Of a DNA stretch of 32,505 nucleotides, positions 1-3,431 are shown in pieces. The stretch is from Thermoplasmata archaeon (GTDB lineage: Archaea > Thermoplasmatota > Thermoplasmata > Lutacidiplasmatales > UBA184). The notes under the pieces are model-generated. The model was not told where the DNA came from. It ran no database searches and saw only the letters and a program-made list of their open reading frames with translations. The translations under genes and the position numbers were made by a program. Positions within the stretch are counted from its first letter, which is position 1. Every line of letters begins with the position of its first letter. The stretch is from positions 1 to 32,505 of the forward strand of contig JASHRQ010000072.1 of the NCBI GenBank assembly GCA_030037265.1, in the 5' to 3' direction.

Positions 1-3000
1 GCGGGCGCGGTCGGGGCGGGCGGGGGGAGCGCCGCCGGCTCCGGGGCCGGCGGAGCCTCCGGCTCCTCCGGGACGACGAACGCGTCCGCCCCCTCCGCCG
101 GTACCGGGACGCTCTCCTCGGCCCGGTCGGGCGGGGGCCAGACCCAGATCCGCTCGGGCACCGCGCCGCCGTAGTGGCGGACCACCTCGCGCGCCACGTA
201 CGGCCCGAATCCCGGGACGGCGGCCAGCTGTTCGTACGGCGCGTGGCCCAGCTCGTCGAGCGACCGGTACCCGGCCTCCCACGCGGCCCACAGCTTCGTG
301 GTGCTCAGGATCGGCGTCCCGAGCGCCGCGTCGAGCTGCTCCAGCATGCTCCGGATCGACTCGTCCCGCTGCCGGAACTCCTCGTCGAGGAAGTCGATCC
401 CCTCGGACGTGCCGGGCTCGTACGCCGGCGGACGGAGGGTGCGGCCGCCGGCCCGGCGGCGGGGCCGTGCCTTTCGCCGGGCGGACGGCCCCGGGAGCCC
501 CGGGATCCAAAGGCTCCAGCCGGCGCCGCGGCGGGTCCGGCCGCGGGTCGTCTCCCCCGGGACGAACCGGCCCGCCTCCGCGACGGCGCGGAACTGCGTC
601 ACCCCCAGGGCGCGCTGGATGGCCGTGGCGCGGGTCCGGAGCTCCTCCTCGAGCGGGGCCGGGACGCACGCCCACACCTCCCCGACCTCGGTGCCGGCCG
701 GCCGCCGCTCGAGGCGACGCCGGGCGGCGCGCACGACGCGGTACGCGTCGGGCGTGAGGCCCAGCGCGAGGTCGCTCGCCGCCGGGCTCACGCCGTCCGG
801 CACCTCGAGGTACACCTCGCCGAGCGCCCACGGGAGGGCCAGCACCCCCGCCGGGAGCGACTCGGTCAGCTCCACCATCGAGGGGGCGATCTGCACCGAC
901 TGTCCGCCGAGCACCAGCGTGAGGGACTGGTTCCGCAGCACGTCGCGGACCCGTCGGGCCGGCATCTGGGAGAGGAGGGTCGCGATCCGCCCCGAGGAGG
1001 CGCCGAACACCCGGCGGAGCTCCGTGGCGTTCGGCTCGACCCGGACCTCGCGCCCGGACCACGGCCGCGACGGGAAGCTCAGCTCCACGCTCTGCGCCGG
1101 CAGGAGGCGCGCGAGCGTCGGGAGCATCGCGTGGAGGGGTCCCGCGTCGGCCTCGTCGCGCGCGTCGAGCACGATCCGCTTCCACCGGTGGCTCCGGGAG
1201 AGGCTCAGCTGGCGCCGGGCGCGGTCGCAGGCCCGGGCGAGGCCGGTGGCCACGTCGAGGCACCGTTCCCCCGGAGGGTCGACGAGGTCCGGCTGCGCCG
1301 GGAGGATCGGCGACTCGAAGAGGCTCCGCGCGTCCTCCCGAAACACGCGGTGGACGGCGTCCATCGTGAACGGGGCGAACGGGGCCCACAGCTCCGCGAC
1401 GCTCGACAGGACGTGCTGGAGCACCGCGTAGAGCGACGACTTCGACGGGGGGAGTCCGGGCTCGTCGAGCCGGCGCTGGATGACCAACAGGTAGCCGTCG
1501 ACGAGCTCCCGGTCGGTGAACCGGTGGAGCCGGTCGAGGACCTCCCCGAAGCGGCCGGCCGCGAGGGCCCCGAGCGCCTCGGTCCGCAGGCGCTCGAACT
1601 TCGACAGGAACGCCCGGTCCTCCTCGAGCAACCCGTCGCGGAGCCTCGCGATCGGCTGGTCGCTCGGGGCGAAGCCGTCCAGCATCATCGCGTCGACGGT
1701 GCGCGCCGCCCGGCCCCAGAACTTCCGCAGCCGTCGGGTCTCCTCCGCCACCAGCGTGGCGACCGGGACGAAGGACCGGCCCGGGCTGGACAGACGGGCG
1801 AGGGCGCCCCGTACGGCGTCGACCGGCGCGTCCGCGCCGACCGGCCAGGTCGTCTCCTCGACCGAGCCCGTCGGCACCAGCGTGAGCCGGGTCTCGGCCG
1901 GCCGCGCCGACGCGGCGAACTGGCCCACGAGCTGCGTGAGGATCCGCGGACCCCGCCGCCGCTCGGGGACGAGGAGCCACACCGCCTCGTCCGGCGGCAG
2001 CGCGCGCAACCGGGCCCACTCGTAGAGGGCCTCCGAGAAGGTCGGGAGGAGCGGCCGCCGGACCTCCGTCCGATGCCCTCCGCACGGACAAGCCTCGCCG
2101 CTGCCCGGCGGAGCCGTCCGACCGCAGTCGGAGCACTCGGCGAGCGCGGGGGCCGGCGGTTCGGCCGAGCCACCGGGGTCGGCGACCGGCCAGGCGACGA
2201 GGTCCGACGGCAGCGAGGCGGTGTCGCGGGGGAGTAGCTGGCGGAGGAGCCCGAGCGTATCGGGATCGAGGCGGTCCGCCTCGAGCGTCCACGTCGTGCC
2301 AGACCGCCAGAAGAGGGCGGTCCCGCACGCCGCGCACCGGGGGACCCCGTGCCGCACCCGAAGCTGCGCGAAGATCGCGGAGGCGTCGGTGAGGTCGCGG
2401 AGGATGAACGCCTCCGCCGTGTCGAGCGGGAGGCCGAAGTACTTGTGGCTGATCTCGCCCTCCATCGTGCCGGTGGGCGACACCATCGGCCATCCGGGCA
2501 CCTGGATCGACTCGGCGATGCGGGCGTCCGACGCGCCGTGCGCCGGGGAGAGGATCACGAGCCCGGTCCCGCTGTCCCCCACCTCGGAGGACGCGTGGAC
2601 CTGGCCCGCCGGCGGCCCGATCGATTGGAGGAACGGGCACTCGGCGCTCAACGGGTGGCCGTAGCCGGTCCCCGCCCATCCCGACCCCGGCCGCTCCTCG
2701 AGCACCTCGATCTCGGCGTCCGGGAGCCAGGAACGGAGCCGGTCGAGACTCGACCGGCTGGTGAGGATCCGCTCCTCGACGCCGCGCCGGGAGTACCGGG
2801 CGAGGACGTACGGCAGGTCGGGGTTCACGAGGACCGCCGTGGTCCCGAGGAGCTTCCACACGCAGTCGGTCCACACCAGCGCCGAGGCGTTCGCCTCGCC
2901 GCCGAGCGGGAACCGAATCAGGTAGGCGGGCCCCTCCTCGTCGACGTAGACAAAGCTCGCCGGGTCCTTCGCCCGGGCGCATCGGGGGCACCAACGGAGG

Positions 3001-3431
3001 GGGGCCGCGCGGACGGTGAGGACGTTCGTCTCGGCCAGCCGGGAGACCATCTCCTGCACCGCCGGGGCGAGCTCGGGCGGCGCGAGCGGCTGGAGGTCGT
3101 CGCGGCCGTACCAGACCCCCAGCTCGTCGAGCAGCGACCCCGGGCCCGCCGGGGCGGTGCCGTCGGCCCGGTCGCGGACCAAGAACGGACCGCACGCGGA
3201 CCGGCCGAGCAGGAGCTGGGACCGCAGTGCGATGTCGGCGAGGACGACCCGCTGGACCGCGACGAGCGGGGCCGCGTCCTCGGGAGTCCAGCCGCCGGAC
3301 AGGAGATGGATCGGCCGACCGCCCCGAACCGGGCGGGCGTCCGGCCCGGGCGGGAGCCGGCGCGCCGCCCAGAACTCCCGGGACTGCGCCTCCACCGCGC
3401 GGGATTCCAGGATGGGCGGGAGCGCACGCAT
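1..3431 (-). CDS. Class Ia aminoacyl-tRNA synthetase-like protein (IleRS-like, apparently catalytically degenerate) with C-terminal helix-hairpin-helix; C-terminus beyond window
   Basis: ATG at 3431 (minus); the frame was followed to base 3 with no stop seen. Translation starts [28 protein letters not shown] and contains IleRS-like blocks: [41 protein letters not shown] (cf. lvWTTTPWTLpaN..vNPd..Y); [18 protein letters not shown] (cf. GTGIVHiAPaFGedD); [72 protein letters not shown] (anticodon-binding domain). HIGH and KMSKS not found. The plus-strand ORFs over it show no family motifs. Confidence 0.82.

Follow-up and report, generated by a model that had tools for sequence, protein, structure and literature searches.

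LeuRS-I of the Sulfolobaceae and LeuRS2 of the Halobacteria are class I synthetase-like copies in which aminoacylation is lost or reduced and tRNA binding is retained (PMC9437257). In HisZ, the HisRS-like regulatory subunit of HisG, and in the HisRS-like domain of GCN2, a synthetase fold has been reused for regulation without adenylation. The protein described here, which we call ex-IleRS, appears from its motifs to be likewise an archaeal class I synthetase-like copy without the charging motifs, and by analogy it may be set beside HisZ and GCN2, being a synthetase homolog without a catalytic site that coexists with an intact synthetase. However, leucyl-adenylate is still formed by LeuRS-I, whose CP1 domain is disrupted, whereas ex-IleRS has both Rossmann halves erased and preserves CP1 best of all its domains. 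The HisZ and GCN2 domains, moreover, have a class II fold and a known partner enzyme or kinase and arose as extra copies, whereas ex-IleRS would be the displaced housekeeping enzyme itself. At most, its mode of action would resemble that of HisZ, of the GCN2 domain or of LeuRS-I, and it is not identical to any of them. No description of an IleRS paralog in Thermoplasmata was found in the literature, and the Lutacidiplasmatales genome paper is silent on synthetases, in agreement with an earlier suggestion that the protein is possibly undescribed.

The window, meaning the whole stretch of 32,505 bp that was analysed, is the entire contig C50 of a 1.67-Mb MAG (154 contigs, 82% complete). The initial annotation, made from the sequence of this contig, had proposed a minus-strand IleRS-like frame of at least 1143 codons that continues past the window, and both points were confirmed. 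Read from an ATG, the frame (3431 to 3) has 1143 open codons, and from an upstream TTG it has 1192. Several long frames are present in this GC-rich genome, and among them this one alone matches known proteins, namely the ileS profile TIGR00392 (118 bits, below the curated cut-off of 621 bits), Anticodon_1 of Pfam and, in a sequence search against solved structures, the editing region of IleRS. It is therefore the coding frame despite the high GC content. A longer overlapping frame (frame -1, 1-3699) was translated and rejected, with 0 matches to known proteins. PF00133 gave no match anywhere in the window ORF in the Pfam search, so that the catalytic half could not be placed by Pfam. The frame is cut by the contig end, and the end of the protein is encoded at C12:1-594 together with a DUF835 domain (PF05763; 71.9 bits, gathering cut-off 33.1; 61.5 bits for the ortholog of G005); after position 594, C12 carries the genes expected from synteny, those found past ex-IleRS in relatives. 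The domain list first given for the protein holds for the IleRS body and lacked the C-terminal helix-hairpin-helix (HHH) motif and DUF835.

Table 1. Features of the ex-IleRS locus in the window (residue numbers refer to the window protein)
Feature	Position	Strand	Remarks
ex-IleRS gene	3..3431	-	1143 codons in C50, ATG at 3431; 3' end on contig C12:1-594 of the same genome
HHH motif, residues 1013-1092	156..395	-	followed by a proline-rich linker up to the contig end
C-terminal domain, residues 751-985 (DUF5915 region)	477..1181	-	common to fused IleRS, absent from separate IleRS
Class I anticodon-binding domain (PF08264), residues 601-750	1182..1631	-	Pfam; mean 85 bits to intact fused IleRS
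Relict second Rossmann half, residues 386-600	1632..2276	-	SRQRYWG and KMSKS lost; Zn2 cysteines C433, C436, C448, C450 kept
KMSKS position	about 1836-1895	-	motif lost
CP1 (editing) domain, residues 137-385	2277..3023	-	Zn1 cysteines C148, C151, C366, C369; best conserved domain
HGASD, editing-site His298 and Asp302 kept	2526..2540	-	invariant in 54/54 aligned sequences
WTDCVWK, replacing Thr-rich editing peptide WTTTPWT	2853..2873	-	W187, W192, L194 invariant and D189 near-invariant in the family
Relict first Rossmann half, residues 1-136	3024..3431	-	6/58 invariants of intact archaeal-type IleRS; mean profile similarity 8 bits
HIGH position, residues 45-66	about 3234-3299	-	reads as 22 residues (letters not shown)
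Divergent intergenic region, ex-IleRS / aIF5A	3432..3601	.	170 bp; head-to-head order in 14/14 loci with flank
aIF5A	3602..4009	+	Pfam IF5A-like_N, eIF-5a; conserved synteny
1491-aa coiled-coil-like protein	4136..8611	+	no Pfam match; 66% identity with the G005 counterpart

The status of each motif was read column by column from an alignment with intact relatives. HIGH is missing in all 15 aligned family members, SRQRYWG and KMSKS are gone from the window's family, and the Thr-rich peptide and the His of GTGIVH (GTGLVI in the window protein) are lost in every aligned family member. Where the Thr-rich peptide used to be, the window's family has a new conserved motif, D..W[KR]LL[GA]T. The initial annotation had reported the loss of HIGH, the Thr-rich peptide (TDCVWK), the GTGIVH His and KMSKS; the alignment bears this out and adds SRQRYWG. 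The protein has neither a usable synthetase site nor a classical editing site, which supports the proposal of the initial annotation that it is neither a synthetase nor a classic trans-editing enzyme. Taking as invariants those defined from 11 intact archaeal-type IleRS, the window's family keeps, besides the few of the first Rossmann half (Table 1), 8/57 in the second half (four of which are cysteines), 22/61 in CP1, 7/19 in the anticodon domain and 1/24 in the C-terminal domain. The profile of the second Rossmann half reaches a mean of 3 bits against intact IleRS, and recognition of both halves is lost. Judged by its defining motifs the window protein is not an IleRS and, as far as sequence can tell, it is almost certainly a former IleRS that has lost catalysis. 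In another decayed lineage (G045 and G057, loci L069 and L067) the Thr-rich peptide has a D/E..W.LL.T-like replacement (LKELWHLLGT, LSDLWKLLDT) that resembles the one of the window's family, possibly by convergence.

An AlphaFold model of ex-IleRS (mean pLDDT 86.5) matches IleRS structures (8c9d, E 4e-49; 1ile, TM 0.68 by target length) and has an IleRS-like fold with CP1, the two zinc clusters and the anticodon-binding domain. The eight cysteines of these clusters (Table 1) are invariant in the 54 aligned sequences. Entropy is lowest in CP1 (1.30 bits versus 1.69-2.21 in the other parts), and between the window and G005 this domain also has the lowest dN/dS (0.22, versus 0.23 for HHH, 0.35-0.40 for the other parts and 0.33 for the whole gene; the values are approximate, as synonymous sites are near saturation). 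The Asp of the editing domain, mutated in yeast IleRS as D333A, has been described as the main determinant of post-transfer editing (PMC4861432), and Asp302 corresponds to it by motif (HGxxD).

In archaeal response regulators DUF835 serves as an output domain and is listed as an inactive KaiC (PMC5847659), and the model of the domain found here (pLDDT 88.6) matches FlaH and KaiC, in agreement with that listing. Among the papers searched, this two-component paper alone mentions DUF835, and a PDB sequence search with the domain gave 0 matches. The Pfam domain and the KaiC/FlaH-like fold are the same as in those response regulators, but there DUF835 comes after REC/PAS, whereas in the window protein it comes after the IleRS body and the HHH motif. 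The domain is also kept in most decay stages of the fused IleRS described below. Its persistence and its role as an output domain would fit a protein in which the IleRS body is a mere structural platform and the selected function, unrelated to tRNA, lies in HHH-DUF835 (signal output, or contacts with proteins or nucleic acids). We regard this explanation as unlikely, though worth keeping in mind, because it is CP1 and not the tail that is most conserved by both entropy and dN/dS, HGxxD and the zinc clusters are invariant, and the half-decayed fused protein of G042 (G042f) does without DUF835.

The prominence of CP1 could instead point to a trans-editing factor, or to a remodelled CP1 site with unconventional hydrolase or transferase activity on aminoacyl-tRNA; the invariant editing Asp and His298, and the new D..W[KR]LL motif at the site of the Thr-rich peptide, might also speak for this. 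Such an activity is improbable, given that no aligned family member retains the Thr-rich peptide or the GTGIVH His and that the editing site of the separate IleRS is intact.

The origin of the protein can be traced within the class Thermoplasmata, where relatives have the IleRS-HHH-DUF835 architecture with intact motifs, a fusion for which no published description was found. It is the only IleRS detected in G040, G043, G047, G050, G052, G058 and G059, some of these MAGs being incomplete, and scores 908-976 bits in G050, G052, G040, G047 and G058. Archaeal-type IleRS sampled from other classes of the phylum mostly lacks the long C-terminal extension. Ex-IleRS shares with the intact fusions (e.g. 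L054, L055) the domain order, the C-terminal domain and the zinc clusters, but those keep HIGT/HIGH-type, SRQRYWG, MSKS and TTTPWT motifs, all of which it lacks. The archaeal-type IleRS-HHH-DUF835 is very probably the evolutionary source of ex-IleRS.

Many Thermoplasmata genomes, including that of the window, encode an additional, separate IleRS (about 1000 aa), which the tree groups with bacterial enzymes. In the window genome it is found on C1 (771 bits; HLGS, KMSKSKG and TTTPWT intact), and it is a separate ileS of the kind that the initial annotation had proposed to look for in the genome. When fused and separate IleRS occur together, one copy usually decays. Beside a second copy, the decaying fused IleRS scores about 735 bits in G049 and G060 and 706-712 in G037 and G039, where HIGH is kept and KMSKS is lost; lower values are 445 bits in G042 and G055, 348 in G057, 308 in G038, 294 in G045 and 118 in the window.

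Some genomes depart from this course. The reverse outcome was observed in G041 (L088 2964-6116) and G054 (L090 2840-5995), where it is the fused IleRS that is intact, the separate bacterial-type one being altered (KISRA/KIKRG, WTATPW/WTVTPW, GTGIVH also changed). The half-decayed fused IleRS of G042 (L068 7064-11095) lacks DUF835 and continues with further HHH motifs and a zinc-ribbon-like stretch. In G053 the archaeal-type IleRS apparently consists of two separate genes, at C1:1850280-1852067 and from C1:2689414 on (loci L108 and L072), with about 840 kb between them. HIGH-type and editing motifs are in the first product (657 aa), and RMSKS, the anticodon domain and the C-terminal part are in the second (857 aa); G063, of the same genus, has the enzyme in a single frame.

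The initial annotation called the protein a paralog. Derivation from IleRS stands, but the word suggests a duplicate, whereas the HHH-DUF835 architecture and the C-terminal similarity favour the lineage's own archaeal-type IleRS, displaced by a bacterial-type one. The ex-IleRS profiles score 129 bits against fused versus 70 against separate IleRS in CP1, 85 versus 53 in the anticodon domain and 68 versus 0.9 in the C-terminal domain. Long branches disturb the core tree, and a grouping of ex-IleRS with the separate IleRS of the family was not firmly rejected by an AU test (p 0.06), so that displacement rests mainly on domain architecture and C-terminal similarity. With its placement obscured in this way, ex-IleRS might instead be a copy of the resident bacterial-type IleRS in which catalysis was lost and HHH-DUF835 acquired independently; this is very improbable in view of the C-terminal scores, of CP1 and anticodon domains nearer to the fused enzyme, and of an identical HHH-DUF835 tail on intact archaeal-type IleRS. 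It is thus very likely that the archaeal-type IleRS was displaced by the bacterial-type one and that no duplication was involved.

Orthologs of ex-IleRS exist, as had been proposed for checking, and whole-gene dN/dS is not neutral: pairs among other same-genus genomes gave 0.11-0.16, values that are approximate for the reason given above, and the functional IleRS of the same genomes gave 0.12-0.16. No stops or interruptions were found in the frame in any genome carrying the gene, and every full-length ortholog has an open frame of about 1350 codons. Purifying selection on ex-IleRS is well supported by these comparisons. A decaying pseudogene of the displaced IleRS with no present function, although suggested by the lost catalytic motifs and by the absence of the gene from about half of the family genomes, is hardly credible in the face of open frames, dN/dS equal to that of functional IleRS, new lineage-specific conserved motifs and invariant cysteines.

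Ex-IleRS is encoded at 72 loci in GTDB genomes, nearly all named Thermoplasmata archaeon and one Candidatus Lutacidiplasma silvani. Within the window's family (Lutacidiplasmatales) 19 of 37 genomes have it and the other 18 do not, indicating that it is dispensable. The neighbouring aIF5A, already noticed in the initial annotation, was verified with Pfam. The gene for the coiled-coil-like protein comes next after aIF5A in 13 of the 14 loci with flank and is conserved across most of the family; inside the clade that carries ex-IleRS the two genes co-occur. Five g5 genomes lack both ex-IleRS and this gene and retain aIF5A and the genes outside the pair; as they form two clades on the tree of the separate IleRS, which is a single-gene tree, this suggests that the two genes were lost together twice within the ex-IleRS clade. 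Genera g2, g3, g4 and g7 have the coiled-coil protein without ex-IleRS, so that the dependence between the two, if real, would be one-sided. A 1474-aa ORF beside aIF5A in genus g3 was considered as a diverged ex-IleRS and discarded, being repetitive, surface-type and unrelated, with no profile match. Further along the window, a 146-aa protein without Pfam match (8621-9061, minus strand; 80-86% identity in same-genus genomes) lies beyond the coiled-coil gene in most loci, and an archaeal D-aminoacyl-tRNA deacylase (PF04414; 11113-12081, plus strand) is near the cluster in several genomes.

The explanation that we favour, as probable, is that a displaced ancestral IleRS has been kept as a non-catalytic scaffold or regulator, likely tRNA-binding, with an inactive-KaiC output domain. 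The original enzyme of the lineage would have been the archaeal-type IleRS, composed of the IleRS body, HHH and the inactive-KaiC-like DUF835. A second, bacterial-type IleRS would then have taken over isoleucylation, and the old gene would have been retained for a protein that has lost both active sites while keeping its fold, zinc clusters, editing Asp, and anticodon-binding and C-terminal domains. Through CP1 and the anticodon-binding domain it could still bind tRNA, perhaps at the aminoacyl 3' end, neither charging nor editing it, and HHH-DUF835 could be the output or partner-binding end. Such a protein may have a regulatory or scaffold role linked to translation, in concert with the coiled-coil protein encoded next to aIF5A, a partnership at which synteny and co-loss hint. 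Counting against this explanation are the low retention of IleRS invariants in the anticodon and C-terminal domains (7/19 and 1/24), the higher dN/dS of 0.33 between the window genome and G005, and the absence of the gene from 18 of the 37 family genomes. A tRNA-linked regulatory role, which is argued by analogy, is possible, and we put it forward tentatively. That ex-IleRS is a dead aminoacyl-tRNA sensor signalling via the inactive-KaiC domain, with aIF5A and the coiled-coil protein as partners, in the manner of an archaeal GCN2-type charging monitor made from IleRS, is a speculative and rather unlikely extension.

The database name "class I tRNA ligase family" given to such proteins misleads the functional annotation of these archaea. 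In this acid-soil archaeal order, a horizontally acquired version would have taken the place of an essential enzyme, and the old protein, retained in inactive form, would link translation to a DUF835/KaiC-like signalling domain. Intact, half-decayed and fully dead stages coexist today, and in at least one lineage (G041/G054) it is the newcomer that decays. Thermoplasmata may thus offer a natural series for asking what aminoacyl-tRNA synthetases do besides charging tRNA.
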